From NCBI GenBank assembly GCA_036172665.1, contig CM069873.1:40642001-40706000 (forward strand): a stretch of DNA of 64,000 bases. The letters are read 5' to 3'. Source of the DNA: Prosopocoilus inquinatus. Lineage: Eukaryota > Arthropoda > Insecta > Coleoptera > Lucanidae. The notes below the pieces were generated by a model. It ran no database searches and was not told the DNA's origin. It saw nothing but the letters and a program-made list of their open reading frames with translations. The position numbers and the translations under genes are program-made. This document shows, in pieces, positions 13,356-64,000 of the stretch. The stretch's first letter is position 1. Every line of letters starts with the position of its first letter.

Positions 13356-13922
13356 AAAAAATTTGTGCAAATCGTTTTTGATTGCAGTGAAAACCTTGAG
13401 CAGCCTCTGTACAGCTGTTTCAGCCCTGCTTGAGGCTTCGTCAGCAAAGACTTAGTTCGACATTCCCACTGCAAACAAAAACGACTTGTCCAATTTATTC
13501 TCAATTGCGATGTAAGAGTGATGAACAGATAAAATAGCGACATCTTACGATCGCTTTGATCTGACATTGCAGTAGGATAAACAAATTGAAGCGGATCTGT
13601 TCCTAATAAGTCCCCCATGCAAGGCGGCCGTGCTTGCTGTCAAAGCATAACGAAAGTTTAAAAAAAAAAATTGTGCAAATCGTTTTTGATTGCAGTGAAG
13701 AAGCCCCAAGCAGGACTGAAACAGCTGTACAGAGGCTGCTGGATGTTTTCACTGCAATCAAAAACAATTTGCACAAAATTTTTTGAAAACTTTCATTATG
13801 CTTTGACAGCAAGCATGGCCGCCTTGCATGGGGGACTTATTAGGAGCAAATCCGTTTCAATTTGTCTATCCTACTGCAATGTCTGGTCAAAAAGCGATCG
13901 TAAGATGTCGCTTTTTTATCTA
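13356..13922. mobile_element. Hammerhead-ribozyme repeat, copy 1 (nested)
   Basis: Slightly more than one unit on the minus strand (period 308 nt, measured between GTGCAAATCG at 13365 and 13673) is followed near 13698 by part of the unit on the plus strand. It is flanked by copies of ATCAATAATAATTTA-type sequence (about 13332-13355 and 13923-13946), consistent with a target duplication in an AAT-rich site. The related element at 24553 shows the uninterrupted site. One hammerhead is on the minus strand. The plus-strand piece begins inside the core (CAGTGAAGAAG), so that copy is broken. Confidence 0.8.
13405..13449 (-). ncRNA. Hammerhead ribozyme motif
   Basis: Minus-strand order: stem I CTTTG, core CTGACGA, stem II AGCCT/GGGCT with loop CAAGCA, GAAA, palindromic stem III ACAGCTGT, cleavage base A (GUA triplet), and stem I partner CAGAG. 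All invariant core positions are present; position 7 is C. One G-T wobble occurs in each of stems I and II. Confidence 0.75.
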
Positions 13923-41007: not shown

Positions 41008-42278
41008 CGTGGGCTGCTGGAAAAGTTTCTGGAAACGGTATGAAAAAACGCATATGAAATTTGGTATACGGTATCATTGTTTTTTGAAGTATTCGCCTTT
41101 GACGTCAATACACTTTTGCAGTCGCTCGAACCAATTTCTAAAGCACGTTTTCCACTCTAAAGATAGTACCTCAGAAACCAGTGTCCGGAATGTTTCAACC
41201 GCTGCTTCAGCCGACGAAAATCGCTCACCACGCATTTTATTTTTGATATTTGGGAACAAAAAGAAATCATTAGGTGATAAATCAGGTGAATATGGACAAT
41301 GAGTCATTAATTCAACATTTTTGTTGGACAAAAAATCAACTGTTTGACGGGCTGAGTGAGAGCTGGCGTTGTCCTGATGAAGAATAATTCGTCGATTTCG
41401 ATTGTTTCTTCTTATTTGATCGATGACTTCCGGCAAACAAATTGTAGTATACCAATCAGCATTCACGGTTTTTAGATCCTCTAAAGCCACGGTTGCTACA
41501 TGTCAAGTTATACAAAAGAAACAAGCAATCATTTGCTTCGCGAACGGACAACTTTTGTTGGTTTTTGGTTCATTTTGAAGTACCCAAACGGTAGATTGTT
41601 GTTTACTTTATGGCTCCTACGAATAGATCCACGTTTCGTCACCAGTGACGATGTTATAAACTAAATTTGAACGATCTCCATTGAATTTCTAGAGCATTTC
41701 TTCGCACCATTTGACACGACCCTGCTTTTGCGCTTCTGTTAAATTGTGTGGGATTCAACGACTGCAAAGCTTGTGTACGTTCAAATGATCGTGCAAAATC
41801 TGGTGTATTGTTTTCATGTCAATGCGTAAGGATGCTTGAATCTCACGGTATGTCACATGTCGATCTCCCTCAAGCATTTCACGCACAGCATCTACATTAG
41901 TGGTAACAACAGATGTTGATGGACGACCTTCACGAAATTCGTCACTGAGAGAGGTACGTCCACGCTGGAATTCGGCAAAGTAATTATAAACACTGCTCTT
42001 TGATTGTGCTTCATCTCCAAAAGCCACATGAAGCCGATCGAGGCATTGTTTCGGCGTTAGATCACATTTAAAATCGTAAAAAATCATGGCACGAAAATTT
42101 TCACGCGAGATTTCCATGTTTACACAAAATTACTTTTTCTCAAATGCTGTACAAACAAAACTAGTTCACTTGGATAGGAACTGTCAATAGAATTATAGGC
42201 GAGAAACGTCAAATTTTTCAGATATGACAGTTGATAAACGTACCTACTAGATTCCAGAAAATTTTCCAGCAGCCCACG
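41008..42278 (-). mobile_element. Mariner element, 1.27 kb, TIRs present
   Basis: Terminal repeats of 27 bp (CGTGGGCTGCTGGAAAAG...) at 41008 and inverted at 42278 differ at one base and abut TA at both ends. The length is normal for mariner. The minus strand carries a disabled transposase. Confidence 0.93.
41074..42117 (-). pseudogene. Mariner transposase, DD34D, disabled
   Basis: The N-terminal part (42117-41755) starts MEISRENFRAM and holds the paired helix-turn-helix (FGDEAQSKSSVYNYFAEF, VTYREIQASL). The catalytic part continues with VTGDETWIYS (first Asp) and then stops. The next open part (41490-41074) has LHQDNASSH (second Asp) and YSPDLSPNDFFLFP (third Asp). There are exactly 34 residues between the last two Asps, the DD34D signature. 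In-frame stops follow VTGDETWIYS and the frame is lost between 41755 and 41490, so no full-length enzyme can be made. All three catalytic residues survive. Confidence 0.92.
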
Positions 42279-42863
42279 TATTGGATTTACGTGTCAGGTT
42301 CAAAGTGGTTAATTGCAATGGAAAATACAAAATTGTGAAACCGTGTCCAATATTTGGAATTATCAAAAAAAAAGCAGAGATTAAGTTCACAATTCGTGCT
42401 TCTCGGAGAAGAAGGCCTTTCAGTCTTATCCAAATGCCACCGACCAAAAATTAAAACTAGTGCGAAGCAGTTGATCACTGAAGGCTTTAGTTAAAGAAGA
42501 ATTCGAAAACTTCTTGGAAAGGAGGGATGCTGCAAGGTTGACCCACGAAGGCAATCCAGAAGTCTCAACGAAAATGGTAGTGATAAAATTCTCGTCAAGA
42601 TTGGTATTGCAAGCTCTTTTACTTTTTTGGCTTCGATAGTAGAAATAGCTGTAAAAGTTCGAATATTCAGTACGCGGAGATGCAATGTTCTTTTAAAAAC
42701 ATAAGTTGCGATTTAATTAAATTCATAATGAATTATAATGAGTACAAGATGAGAATGAAGTGAGTCGGCCTGGAACTGAGATGCGTACGGCAAGACTCCA
42801 ATCGGGAAGAACGAGATCGAGCTTACGGTAGATGCGATATTAATATACGACATAATTTCTGTA

Positions 42864-43220
42864 AAAATTTTGTGCAAATCGTTTTTGATTGCAGTGAAAA
42901 CCTCGAACAGCCTCTGTACAGCTGTTTCAGCCCTGCTTGGGGCTTCTTCAGCAAAGATGTAGCTCGACATTCCCACTGCAAACAAAAACAACTTGTCCAA
43001 TTTATTCGCAATTGCGATATAAGAGTGATGAACAGATAAAATAGCGACATCTTACTATCGTTTTTTGACCTGACATTGCAGTAGGATAGACAAATTGAAG
43101 CGGGATTTGGCCGCCTTGCATGGAGGACTTATTAGGAGCAAATCCCGCTTCAATTTGTTTATCCTACTGCAATGTCAGGTCAAAAAGTGATAGTAAGATG
43201 TCGCTATTTTATCTGTTCAT
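42864..43220. mobile_element. Hammerhead-ribozyme repeat, copy 2
   Basis: A 357-bp insertion flanked by the 13-bp duplication CATAATTTCTGTA (42851-42863, 43221-43233). The minus-strand unit runs from AAAATTTTGTGCAAATCG to about 43110, where it switches to the plus strand (GCCGCCTTGCATGG...) and ends ATCTGTTCAT. It belongs to the same family as 13356, 43997 and 49128. Confidence 0.88.
42912..42956 (-). ncRNA. Hammerhead ribozyme motif
   Basis: Minus-strand order: CTTTG, CTGAAGA, AGCCC/GGGCT closing loop CAAGCA, GAAA, stem III ACAGCTGT, cleavage base A (GUA), CAGAG. All invariant core positions are intact; stem I has one G-T pair. Confidence 0.8.
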
Positions 43221-43694
43221 CATAATTTCTGTATTCAATTAAGTATAATTTATGCGTAGCAAATGCAACGTCAATATTCCCCACTTGCGCAACAATCTGC
43301 AATCAATCAATCAATAATGCTTAAGTAATGCAGTAACGTAGAAGAAATAAGAAATTGATATTCTTACCCCTGATGTTGACCTAATTACGTGTCGTGTTCC
43401 TTGTTGAAAGGGTAGTTTTTTTTATAAATTTAATCATACAGTTTTTTTTATGAATTTAATTTAAATTCTGTTTCAAGAGAGTTAAAAAAAGTATTTAATA
43501 TTTCATCATTTCAATCGGTCTTAATTAATGGAAATTTGTACACATTAAAAAGAAAATTATTTTTTTCTGTAATTGCATTGTGAACTAAATTTCTCGTTTT
43601 GTTAACATATTTCTGTATCTATTAAAACTGAATTTCAGATTGATTCAGGATGATACAAAATAAGTGTCCGGTCCGTCGGTCACAGATAGTACAC

Positions 43695-43735: not shown

Positions 43736-43996
43736 ACATACATAGGGGGTATAAGACACATAGTTTTTGATATAAAATACATTGAAGATTCAGATATAAA
43801 TTGGTTGATGGGCACTAATGCAGATGTACTGCGTCACAAGAGCAATGAACTCGCGTGAAATAGAATGAAATACTAGCGTTTACCTTGAAATGAAACTGTA
43901 AAACGTTTTTATTCATGGCTTTCTGTAAAAAAATGTATAATACGCAATTCTTTCATTCAAATTTCAGACTTGGGTATGTATACGTAAGAATCATCA

Positions 43997-44095
43997 ACAA
44001 TTAAAATAGCGACATCTTACGATCGCTTTTTGACCTGACATTGCAGAGGCTGCTCGAGGTTTTCACTGCATTCAAAAAGATTTGCACAAAATTTT
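43997..44095. mobile_element. Hammerhead-repeat family, truncated copy 3
   Basis: A 99-bp insertion with the 13-bp duplication GTAAGAATCATCA (43984-43996, 44096-44108). The sister element at 47563-47582 shows the empty site. It joins minus-strand text (AAAATAGCGACATC...ATTGCAG) to plus-strand text that starts CAGAGGCTGCTCGAGG, exactly at the ribozyme cleavage site. No ribozyme core is present. Confidence 0.88.
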
Positions 44096-47306: not shown

Positions 47307-47708
47307 CCGGGTGATTCAAAATAAGTGTCCGGTTCGTCAACCATAAGTAGTGTCCAGAAAAAAAAATGCATTGAAGATTCAGATATAAATTGATCGCATT
47401 AACACAACTGTATTGCGTCACAAGAGCAATTAGAATGAAATACTACGCTAGTATTTTGTTCTATTCCACGCGGCAGTTGTAAGACGTTTTCATTTGTGGC
47501 TTTCTGCAGAAAAATGTATAAAATGCAATTCATTTATTTGAATTTCGGACTGGTGTATATATACATAAGAATCGTAATTTCCATTTTGGACTCAAAGGAG
47601 GTTGATTTTTGAAATGTCTCTAATAGATTTATTTCTTGCAATTTCGTATTTGCATGACCTTAGTGAATGCGCTTCTAATGGGTCGAACACTTATTCTGAA
47701 TCACCTTG
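47307..47708. mobile_element. TIR element, GGTGATTCA family, copy 2
   Basis: 402 bp from CCGGGTGATTCAAAATAAG to the inverted CTTATTCTGAATCACCTTG, TA at both sides. It lacks the hairpin and the ribozyme insertion of copy 1, and so serves as the empty-site reference. Confidence 0.85.
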
Positions 47709-49115: not shown

Positions 49116-49316
49116 TATGTCTTCTACAGATAAAATAGCGACAACTTACTATCGCTTTTTGACCTGACATTGCAGTAGGATAGACAAATTGAAGCGGGAT
49201 TTGCTCCTAAAAAGTCCCCCATGCAAGGCGGCCATGCTTGCTGTCAAAGCATAATGAAAGTTTTTAGAAAAAATTTGTGCAAATCGTTTTTGATTGCAGT
49301 GAAAACCTCGAGCAGC

Positions 49317-49361
49317 CTCTGGACAGCTGTTTCAGCCCTGCTTGGGGCTTCTTCAGCAGAG
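49317..49361 (-). ncRNA. Hammerhead ribozyme motif
   Basis: Minus-strand mirror of 49535-49579 with identical core, stem II, palindromic stem III and GTC cleavage triplet. Confidence 0.85.
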
Positions 49362-49534
49362 ACGTAGCTCGACATTCCCACTGCAGACCAAAAAAACGAT
49401 TTGCCCAATTTATTCGCAATTGCGATGTAAGAATGATGAACAGATAAAATAGCGACATCGGGCCCAATTTATTCGCAATTGCGAATAAATTGGGCAAGTC
49501 GTTTTTGGTCTGCAGTGGGAATGTCGAGCTACGT

Positions 49535-49579
49535 CTCTGCTGAAGAAGCCCCAAGCAGGGCTGAAACAGCTGTCCAGAG
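49535..49579 (+). ncRNA. Hammerhead ribozyme motif, all core positions intact
   Basis: CTCTG (49535-49539), CTGAAGA (49540-49546), stem II AGCCC/GGGCT with loop CAAGCA, GAA, stem III ACAG/CTGT without a loop, C17 at 49574 (GTC triplet), CAGAG (49575-49579). Stem I extends outward: GT/GC pairs, then TCGAGC with GCTCGA, TGCAGTG with CACTGCA, and TCGTTTTTG with CAAAAACGA, reaching about 49499-49612. Predicted role: self-cleavage of the repeat transcript between 49574 and 49575. The loopless stem III favours a dimeric fold. Confidence 0.87.
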
Positions 49580-49657
49580 GCTGCTCGAGGTTTTCACTGC
49601 AATCAAAAACGATTTGCACAAATTTTTTCTATGTCTTCTACGTTTACGTGTATAATA

Positions 49658-49790: not shown

Positions 49791-49967
49791 GTTTGAATAG
49801 CACTGATGACTATTAGAATGTGATGCGTAACGTGTTTTTAATCGGGTTACCTAATTGTTTATGATTTAGAAACTATGTCACTGTGTCAACAAAATTAAAA
49901 TGTATTGGAGACTGTGATTTGTAGTACAAAGAAATTGAATTTAACCTCCTGACCACAAAAAAAAAAT

Positions 49968-50006
49968 GGATACGTATTTCGGCATCTATGCTGCTATCTT
50001 CAGTAG
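49968..50006 (-). ncRNA. Degenerate hammerhead-like motif, family 3
   Basis: Minus strand: CTA, CTGAAGA, an imperfect stem II around GCAGCATAGATGC, GAAATACGTATC. Stem I no longer pairs. Confidence 0.4.
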
Positions 50007-50047
50007 ATACCTTCTTCTTGATCACAAGAGAAGTGTTTTTCTGGCAC

Positions 50048-50088
50048 CTACTGAAGATGACAGCATAGCTGCTGAAATACGTATCTAG
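50048..50088 (+). ncRNA. Hammerhead-like motif, family 3
   Basis: CTA (stem I), CTGAAGA, stem II with CAGC/GCTG around ATA, GAA, palindromic stem III ATAC/GTAT, cleavage base C, TAG (stem I). Stem I is only three pairs and the base of stem II is imperfect, so this is probably a decayed relative. Confidence 0.5.
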
Positions 50089-50141
50089 TTTAAAAAAAAA
50101 AACTTTTTGTGGTTAAGAGGTTAAATCGAATTTCTTTGTGT

Positions 50142-52999: not shown

Positions 53000-54584
<1,585 letters not shown>

Positions 54585-62112: not shown

Positions 62113-62210
62113 TGGTGTCAGGTGTGGGGTTTGTGCAAATAAATAAACAATTTAAAGTAAATTAAATTTAATCAGATTATTAAATAAATACAGTATCGAA
62201 AAAAAAAACA

Positions 62211-63653
62211 ATGGCTACGAGAAAAGTGTTGTTGAAAGACTTAAACGTGGCCGAATTAAAAACCGAATTGGAAGAACGAGAGTTAGAAACCTGTGGTTTG
62301 AAAGGCGCACTTCAACAGCGTCTCCGATCCGATTTGTTGACAGCTGGCGAAGATCCAGAGACCTTCCTTTTCGAAATTTCGTGTGGTCCCGCCGATTTTA
62401 ATAAAATCCTGAAAGATGAACTTCGAGAACAATCCAGAAATTTAGAGCAAAAGCTTCTAGAACAATCTGGAAATTTCAAGGACGAACTTCGAGAACAATC
62501 TGGAAATTTCAAGGACGAACTTCGAGAACAATCTAGAAATTTAGAGGAGAAGCTTCTAGAACAATCTGGAAATTTCGATAAATTACAGAATAAATTGTTG
62601 GAACAATCTAGAGACTTAGACGAAAAATTTCTAGAGCAATCCAGAAATTTCGACGAGAAACTTCTAGAACAGTCCGGAAATTTGAAGGGTGAATTTCTAG
62701 AACAGACGAAAGGACTCGAAGATAAACTAGTGGTAAAAATATCGGAAGAAACAAGAAACCTGCAAGAAAATGTGGAAGAAATAATATTCCAGCATGATAA
62801 CAAAATCAAAAATCTGGAACAAATCATGGCGGGGTTGCGAGTGTTCGAGGATCAGCCACCAGTAGAAGTACTAGAAAATAATGAAACCCGAATTGTGGAA
62901 GGACCAGCAGAAAATTCGAAATTAAAAATAAAACCACCAACGTTCGATGGAAAGTCTTCTTGGCCCAACTACTTCAAACAGTTCGAAGCAGCAGCAAAGG
63001 CGAACAGATGGACGGCCAGCGAAAAAGCCACTTCGTTAATTGTGGCCTTGAGAGGGGACGCTATCGATGTGCTACAGACGATGCCGCCAGAGGAACAAGA
63101 AGACTTCGACAAGCTGGTGAATAGGATGGAAATGCGTTACGGACAGGCCCATCTGACCGAGGTATACCATGCGCAGTTGAGGAATCGCTGTCAGAAATCC
63201 GGAAATCTTCAGGAATTCGAAGCAGACGTTGCGCGTCTAGCCCAGTTGGCATATCCCACAGCTCCTGTTGAATTCCTCAAATGTTTGACGATGCAGACCT
63301 TCATAGATGGAATCCGTGACACAGACAACCAGCAGGCATTGAGAATGACCCATCCGAAGACATCCAAGAACGCATTGGCTTATGCCTTGGAATTTGAAGC
63401 GGCGAGACGAGTTTCAAGAGGGCATGTGCGGCTATGGACTTCCAAGAGGAAGAAGAAGAAGAGTCCGCCAACGCCAAGGTGGGATCTGCTAATAAGGGGC
63501 AATCCAAGGAATATGCCACCGCCGAGGATGTTTGCCGCATTGTGGAACAGGTCTTCAAGCAGAAGAAGCCGCTGGTGTGGCCAGGAGGAAGGACATGTTC
63601 GCAGGCGATGTCCAAAGCCCAGACAGGATCCAAGAAAGCCACAGTTAAACTAA
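62211..63653 (+). CDS. gag: Gypsy-type gag, with frame disruptions near its end
   Basis: The 480-codon frame encodes the structural protein that forms the retrotransposon particle. Residues 8-42 (LNVAELKTELEERELET) look like a SAP-type helix pair. Residues about 65-190 are successive 11-residue repeats of the type NFKDELREQSG, a hendecad coiled coil. Residues about 245-400 form a retrotransposon gag core (PPTFDGKSSWPNYFKQF, MRYGQAHLTEVY). From about 63418 the gag-like text (MDFQEEEEEESAN, EDVCRIVEQVF) moves to the -1 frame. A degenerate zinc knuckle (RWCGQEEGHVRRRCPK) is back in the original frame. The first Cys is missing from the knuckle. This copy is probably damaged at two sites. Confidence 0.85.
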   Translation: MATRKVLLKDLNVAELKTELEERELETCGLKGALQQRLRSDLLTAGEDPETFLFEISCGPADFNKILKDELREQSRNLEQKLLEQSGNFKDELREQSGNFKDELREQSRNLEEKLLEQSGNFDKLQNKLLEQSRDLDEKFLEQSRNFDEKLLEQSGNLKGEFLEQTKGLEDKLVVKISEETRNLQENVEEIIFQHDNKIKNLEQIMAGLRVFEDQPPVEVLENNETRIVEGPAENSKLKIKPPTFDGKSSWPNYFKQFEAAAKANRWTASEKATSLIVALRGDAIDVLQTMPPEEQEDFDKLVNRMEMRYGQAHLTEVYHAQLRNRCQKSGNLQEFEADVARLAQLAYPTAPVEFLKCLTMQTFIDGIRDTDNQQALRMTHPKTSKNALAYALEFEAARRVSRGHVRLWTSKRKKKKSPPTPRWDLLIRGNPRNMPPPRMFAALWNRSSSRRSRWCGQEEGHVRRRCPKPRQDPRKPQLN

Positions 63654-64000
63654 GCCGGGTCGGTGCAGAGGGACAACTGTCGATCCATATTCAAAGGCCC
63701 CCAAAGACGAAAGCCAACCAAGTAATATCCCTACGGAAGTTAACCAGCAGTGTCTTCGTGGATGTTACCATTGATGACATTCCTCACACCATGTTGTTGG
63801 ATACGGGTGCGACGAAGACCATCCTAAGACCCGACGTCATTAAGTCATCTGGACGCACTGAGCCGACCAAGTGGAGACTGAAAACTGCAACTGGAACTCC
63901 AATAAAGCACCGTGCACTGGTAGCGGACATAGAGGACGAGGCAATTTTGGGCATGGACATCATGTGTGCCCACGGGTTTCAATTGGACTTAAAGCGTGGC
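63422..64000 (+). CDS. pol: Gypsy-type pol start with aspartic protease (cut by window end)
   Basis: The -1 frame relative to gag stays open to the window end. It contains the retropepsin core MLLDTGATKTILR (catalytic Asp at about 63800, in D-T-G) and EAILGMDIM near 63950, matching the second conserved protease block (ILG.D). Reverse transcriptase, RNase H and integrase would follow outside the window. The gag-pol overlap in the -1 frame is consistent with programmed frameshifting in this class, but no slippery site was identified. Confidence 0.82.

Follow-up and report, generated by a model that had tools for sequence, protein, structure and literature searches.

Features of the locus

The window is the whole 64,000-nucleotide stretch of Prosopocoilus inquinatus contig CM069873.1 (positions 40,642,001 to 40,706,000) that we analysed. 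Between 49128 and 49629 it carries an insertion of about 500 bases, flanked by perfect 12-bp target duplications, TATGTCTTCTAC, that are read directly from the sequence at 49116..49127 on the left and 49630..49641 on the right. Positions within the element are numbered along one natural 312-nt unit that served as reference, with u1 being the base following the hammerhead cleavage site. Decomposition with a hidden Markov model (HMM) divides the insertion into a left arm on the minus strand (49126..49461), which is antisense cDNA, starts at a site that we call B (u196), runs to u175 and has a length of one lap plus 22 nt; a 23-nt antisense piece from u233 to u211 (49462..49484, minus strand); and a sense right arm on the plus strand (49485..49631), with a second site, A (u57), at its end. 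The left arm at its start and the right arm at its end each share 2 nt with the target duplication. The inverted arms are 100% complementary over 130 nt, and the copy contains an 18-nt direct repeat at a spacing of 314 nt. The initial annotation had given the period as 314 nt, which is correct for this copy but not for the family, where the unit is 312 nt in a perfect array at another locus, L016.

Each strand of the insertion contains CTGAAGA, a stem II of AGCCC/GGGCT, GAAA and a short stem III, together with a TGTC^C site and a paired stem I. We take CUGANGA, stem II and GAAA to be the hammerhead core. The earlier claim of a core, stems I and II and a cleavage site on both strands is borne out: motif scanning places type I hammerheads, open at stem I, at 49315..49363 on the minus strand, with core, three stems and predicted cleavage at 49322|49321, and at 49533..49581 on the plus strand, where the predicted cleavage at 49574|49575 is the same position that had been proposed. 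Scanning the window for a core with three stems returned four places (five rows, two of which overlap), the other two being 42911-42957 and 13402-13452, both on the minus strand, and all four are copies of the retrozyme family. Chance hammerheads are ruled out, as 100 Markov-1 random windows gave 0 motifs in the same scan. A covariance-model search had been recommended as a check and came out negative at threshold, with nothing in the window at the Rfam gathering score; Hammerhead_HH9 matched the minus-strand copy weakly (16.6 bits against a gathering score of 52, E 0.59) and gave 16.6 bits, likewise under 52, on locus L016. Because the Rfam matches lie below the gathering score, recognition of the hammerhead rests on core, stems and conservation. 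Across 11 core positions, 2 of 903 cells are variant, against about 24 expected from the rate in the rest of the unit, the cells being non-independent observations, and the random decay of the core that had been offered as grounds for rejecting the reading is not seen. The base at the cleavage site does vary, C being missing in 18 of 83 copies, 17 of which have A. Judged from the motif, the transcripts would cleave themselves. A 22-nt hammerhead string was absent from the viral contigs of the sequence collection searched. A 23-nt exact match to the stem II/III side of the hammerhead occurs in alphaproteobacterial contig WLWY01000017.1 (L086:7528-7550), but it lacks CUGANGA and the rest of the core and is probably due to chance rather than a bacterial relative.

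Three further copies of the family lie in the window, as resolved by HMM decomposition. An older copy at 13356..13921 has a minus arm followed by a plus arm, ends A/B and the duplication ATCAATAATAAT; a second, at 42863..43223, also has ends A/B, with duplication CATAATTTCTGTA; and a small copy of 112 bp at 43984..44095 has ends B/A and duplication GTAAGAATCATCA. This last retrozyme breaks a repeat, and another copy of that repeat in the window is without it, providing a paralogous empty site in which the related, diverged target occurs once (47564..47577).

Several other features share the window. A 459-codon open frame at 3513-4892 matches DUF659 and, weakly, a hAT dimerisation domain, and resembles a transposase gene. 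On the minus strand, two open frames at 41074-42129 resemble a broken mariner transposase (DDE_3, HTH_48). Frames at 62184-64000 that continue past the window end resemble a retrotransposon gag (weakly, with SAP) and an aspartyl protease, and a 223-nt run of the dinucleotide AG occupies 53003-53225. The statement that the element has no coding partner here stands insofar as no reverse transcriptase was found among the 10 of 24 long window frames that were scanned, but an intact Penelope-like element (PLE) is present elsewhere in the genome.

The retrozyme family in the genome

We ran three DNA searches of the 650-Mb genome, scoring 40 candidates in each. The best 40 of 513 candidates gave at least 130 matches, the best 40 of 129 at least 42, and the best 40 of 2928 at least 56, counts that are lower bounds for copy number. 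Seventy loci (L009-L078) and three stretches of the window were decomposed with a circular two-strand HMM; 12 of the 37 loci listed by the third search (40 of 2928 scored) were taken into this sample, which is biased to copies near the query sequence. After clusters of fewer than 60 aligned bases were excluded, 87 were kept, 83 of them uncut by a locus end.

At L016, five successive identical 312-nt units lie between six hammerheads, and one more hammerhead is present in the opposite orientation. Another array, at L055:2575-6143, is single-armed, comprises about 11 units (3568 nt), starts at site A and has no scored duplication, and 0 of 20 variants are common to all of its laps. The unit has a GC content of 43.6%, its longest stop-to-stop frame when repeated is 103 aa, and a frame check of the repeated unit found no open reading frame for reverse transcriptase and GIY-YIG. 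The initial reading of a retrozyme-like tandem hammerhead unit copied back into the genome with a duplication is upheld.

As far as the accessible text of the account of metazoan non-LTR retrozymes goes (PMC7229834), these have type I hammerheads, units of 170-400 nt in tandem repeats, GC below 45%, duplications of more than 4 bp and a strongly self-paired predicted circle, and the 312-nt unit agrees on each point. The same text describes direct tandem repeats, with no mention in that part of head-to-head arms or a fixed pair of ends. Plant LTR retrozymes, as described there (PMC7229834), are alike in having a hammerhead-bearing non-coding unit for which movement via circular RNA is supposed, but they have type III hammerheads, LTRs, 4-bp duplications and circles of 600-800 nt, whereas the hammerhead here is type I and the duplications are 11-19 bp. 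By the sequence features tested, 49128-49629 is a retrozyme and not a Penelope element, though it is inserted like one.

Outer ends and target duplications

The head-to-head strand switch that had been singled out as an oddity is the usual layout of the family: 66 of the 83 uncut clusters have a simple minus-then-plus arrangement, 14 are single-armed and 3 are of other form. A scored target duplication flanks 51 of the 83, compared with 4 of 400 mismatched flank pairs, a difference that rules out inverted-repeat or satellite DNA arising without insertion. The duplications of these 51 copies are 11-19 bp in size, with 12 or 13 bp in 39 of the 50 classified.

Nor are the ends arbitrary, as had been supposed. 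In the duplication-flanked copies, 100 of 102 outer ends fall within u51-66 or u185-201 (windows of 16-17 nt), corresponding to site A near u57 and site B near u195. Furthermore, 50 of the 51 copies have one A and one B end, arranged minus-then-plus with the RNA 3' ends outward, either A-left/B-right (32) or B-left/A-right (18); were each end decided by the toss of a coin, the probability of such a result would be P 5e-14. The exception, L058:535, has one B end and one end that was unclassified. Two insertions were each sampled twice (L021/L022 and L019/L034), and leaving out L022 and L034 gives 48 of 49. The 32 clusters without a scored duplication comprise seven A/B, three A/A (L025, L029 and L052:1547), no B/B and 22 partial, such that A/A ends account for 3 of the 60 two-armed copies in which each end could be classified. 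In the 12 uncut clusters sampled from the third search, eight were A/B, four partial and none A/A or B/B.

The retrozyme cuts prefer ^GTT, found at 21 of 102 against 1.8% in the control (P 2e-16), the cut positions being uncertain by at least one base where target and element have bases in common. Separately, L009 and L051 lie on different contigs in almost identical target sequence. The two insertions face opposite ways and their arms differ; their duplication, TAAGCTTAATGC, lies between AAC and GTT or ATT.

Agreement between arms and inner joints

A further question is whether both arms derive from one template. One alternative supposes two separate RNAs, with 3' ends at A and at B respectively, that became linked at a double-strand break; the two sites would then simply be RNA ends rather than internal starts. 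The finding that 138 of 162 rare variants are not shared between the arms is in keeping with it. However, in 32 of the 50 copies with one end of each kind, an arm is longer than 312 nt, passing the other site and then its own site again, more than one full lap, and the 24 rare variants that are found again in the other arm are twelvefold above the 1.9 expected. A PLE also starts internally in vitro, according to the accessible part of PMC11167929. We regard two separate RNAs as unlikely.

Agreement between arms is higher within than between insertions in 49 of 53 cases (means 0.981 and 0.963). The recurrence of rare variants comes from 12 of the 42 insertions having any rare variants, and gene conversion between arms could contribute to it. 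Private variants are repeated per lap in some copies (8 of 8 at L042, 7 of 7 at L047 and 9 of 10 at L065) and rarely in others (0 of 20 at L055 and 1 of 23 at L041). For some copies such comparisons support one RNA per insertion; for the others we infer it.

The inner joints are of a different character from the outer ends. All but one of 66 lack added bases, the exception being L014 with 13. Overlap at the 65 gap-free joints averages 2.55, where random joints would give 0.71, and 18 of the joints have none. Moreover, 62 of the 66 are distinct, a number that rules out a fold-back DNA element of fixed form, and along the unit their distribution is not different from a uniform one (KS P 0.22 and 0.30). 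Outer ends are fixed in the retrozyme insertions, and inner joints are free.

A second alternative is self-priming, in which a single cDNA, begun at a single nick, would fold on itself at a palindrome and serve as its own template, yielding head-to-head arms, as proposed for inverted junctions in rotifer Penelopes in the available portion of PMC3846280. Overlaps of 10 nt or more occur at two of the 65 gap-free joints, in the window copy (12) and L012 (10), and both joints sit at the 12-bp palindrome of the unit, as self-priming would predict; in addition, L025 resembles the fold-back of an A-started cDNA, having no B end. The 34-bp palindrome reported at the strand switch is indeed present in the window copy, where it consists of the antisense piece at 49462..49484 and the adjoining 11 nt and includes the 12-bp palindrome TCGCAATTGCGA at 49473-49484, but such overlap is not general. 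Fold-back should give two ends of one kind, yet 50 of 51 copies have two kinds, and overlap is below 10 in 63 of the 65 joints. Self-priming may have operated in single copies, but as the general route it is quite improbable.

A Penelope-like element of the same genome

Searching with the GIY-YIG profile (PF01541) gave at least 150 hits among 2232 candidates. Where neighbouring hits were no more than 6 kb apart, 46 of 47 pairs were minus-then-plus and one minus-minus. We read seven PLE copies (L079-L085), a non-random choice of six compact pairs plus L085, which was picked for its open frame. L085 has an intact frame of 788 aa with RVT_1 (54.5 bits) and GIY-YIG (29.4 bits), minimal hammerheads within its repeats, and an inverted arm. 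All seven copies are head-to-head and flanked by duplications of 11-15 bp, and in each a 35-40-nt tail is present at one end and absent from the other. The sequence ^GTT occurs at 4 of 14 PLE cuts, taken at computed boundaries, against 2.1% background (P 2e-4), a rate not different from that at retrozyme cuts (Fisher P 0.50).

The retrozyme and PLEs have in common head-to-head arms with 3' ends outward and two alternative ends, one per side, and with the PLE of this genome the retrozyme also shares the ^GTT preference and the size of the duplications (11-15 bp in the PLE). It differs in lacking an open reading frame, in the spacing of the two ends (about 138 nt on the unit compared with 35-40 nt in the PLE) and in having a hammerhead with stem III, in contrast to the minimal type; sequence comparison of the two revealed no likeness. 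Site B and the PLE end that lacks the tail were also compared, and their resemblance was rejected as not significant (P 0.28). The mobilising PLE may perhaps belong to another family than the one examined.

About 300 bp past the window copy, at 49926-50139, two inverted arms (49926-50006 and 50048-50139) lie head to head, each with a PLE-type minimal hammerhead (CTGAAGA...GAAATACGTATC). We read the pair as the aged remnant of a different element built on the same head-to-head plan.

In L1 biology, twin priming is the priming of a second strand internally at chance homology. LINE-type twin priming of this kind, with strand one starting at a fixed site, would likewise yield head-to-head arms and a target duplication, but it should leave one end variable, yet both retrozyme ends are fixed, and duplication size and cut preference fit the PLE of the same genome (the element with which the comparison was made), making it a very improbable source of these insertions.

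Discussion

Which enzyme moves metazoan retrozymes has been left open between LINEs and PLEs in the accessible text of PMC7229834, and the part of PMC7761336 at hand describes retrozyme repeats as having no motif that tells the mobilising enzyme. PLE machinery, an RNA circle and paired priming at A and B are, in our judgement, likely to be the best explanation of the insertions described here. The retrozyme would be a non-coding, non-autonomous element whose unit measures 312 nt and contains a type I hammerhead; its transcripts would cut themselves and presumably close to a circle. Reverse transcriptase/GIY-YIG machinery, presumably that of a PLE, would nick an AT-rich target on both strands, at positions some 12-13 bp from each other and with ^GTT preferred. 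Both nicked 3' ends would then prime internally on the retrozyme RNA, one at A (u about 57) and the other at B (u about 195), and the cDNAs would travel round the RNA to differing extents, often beyond a full lap, before being joined head to head at short microhomologies. Because the one-of-each end rule suggests it, a single RNA may bridge the two halves of a dimeric enzyme.

The family, its paired ends, duplications, joints and cut preference, and the intact PLE in the genome are observed directly; self-cleavage, circularity of the RNA, its mobilisation by a PLE, the use of one RNA per insertion and the bridging of a dimer are the parts of this scheme that we infer. The predicted circular fold has an energy of -111.7 kcal/mol, compared with -71.8 (sd 5.5) for 100 mononucleotide shuffles. 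It leaves site A unpaired and places site B at the edge of A's multibranch loop, a nearness that 28 of 312 offset pairs equal.

Partial texts on PLEs provide two points of reference. A lizard PLE in vitro cuts and extends both strands and has two internal start sites; no difference in start site was seen between the strands, a point against our scheme (PMC11167929). For Penelopes, inverted pLTRs are reported together with 8-10-bp duplications, and one of the inverted pLTRs may bear a tail (PMC3846280). Our literature search, with most subscription journals outside it, found no paper on retrozymes together with twin priming or inverted target-primed insertion, nor on Penelope-like elements together with head-to-head structure and target-primed reverse transcription.

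A more specific version of paired A/B priming, which we advance tentatively and with slightly less than even confidence, is that one circular RNA templates both target strands simultaneously from dedicated, non-interchangeable starts, one for each half of a Penelope-type dimer, and that two reverse transcriptases circle it, each displacing what the other has made, up to the point where the cDNAs are joined head to head. If true, the dual-start rule would also account for the tail that Penelope elements have on one end only. In its fixed and paired ends, the size of its duplications, its cut preference and its head-to-head joints, the retrozyme leaves a footprint similar to that of the genome's own PLE, a likeness that would indicate which enzyme moves animal retrozymes, while the inverted structure of Penelope elements becomes a testable rule: a single start site for each target strand.
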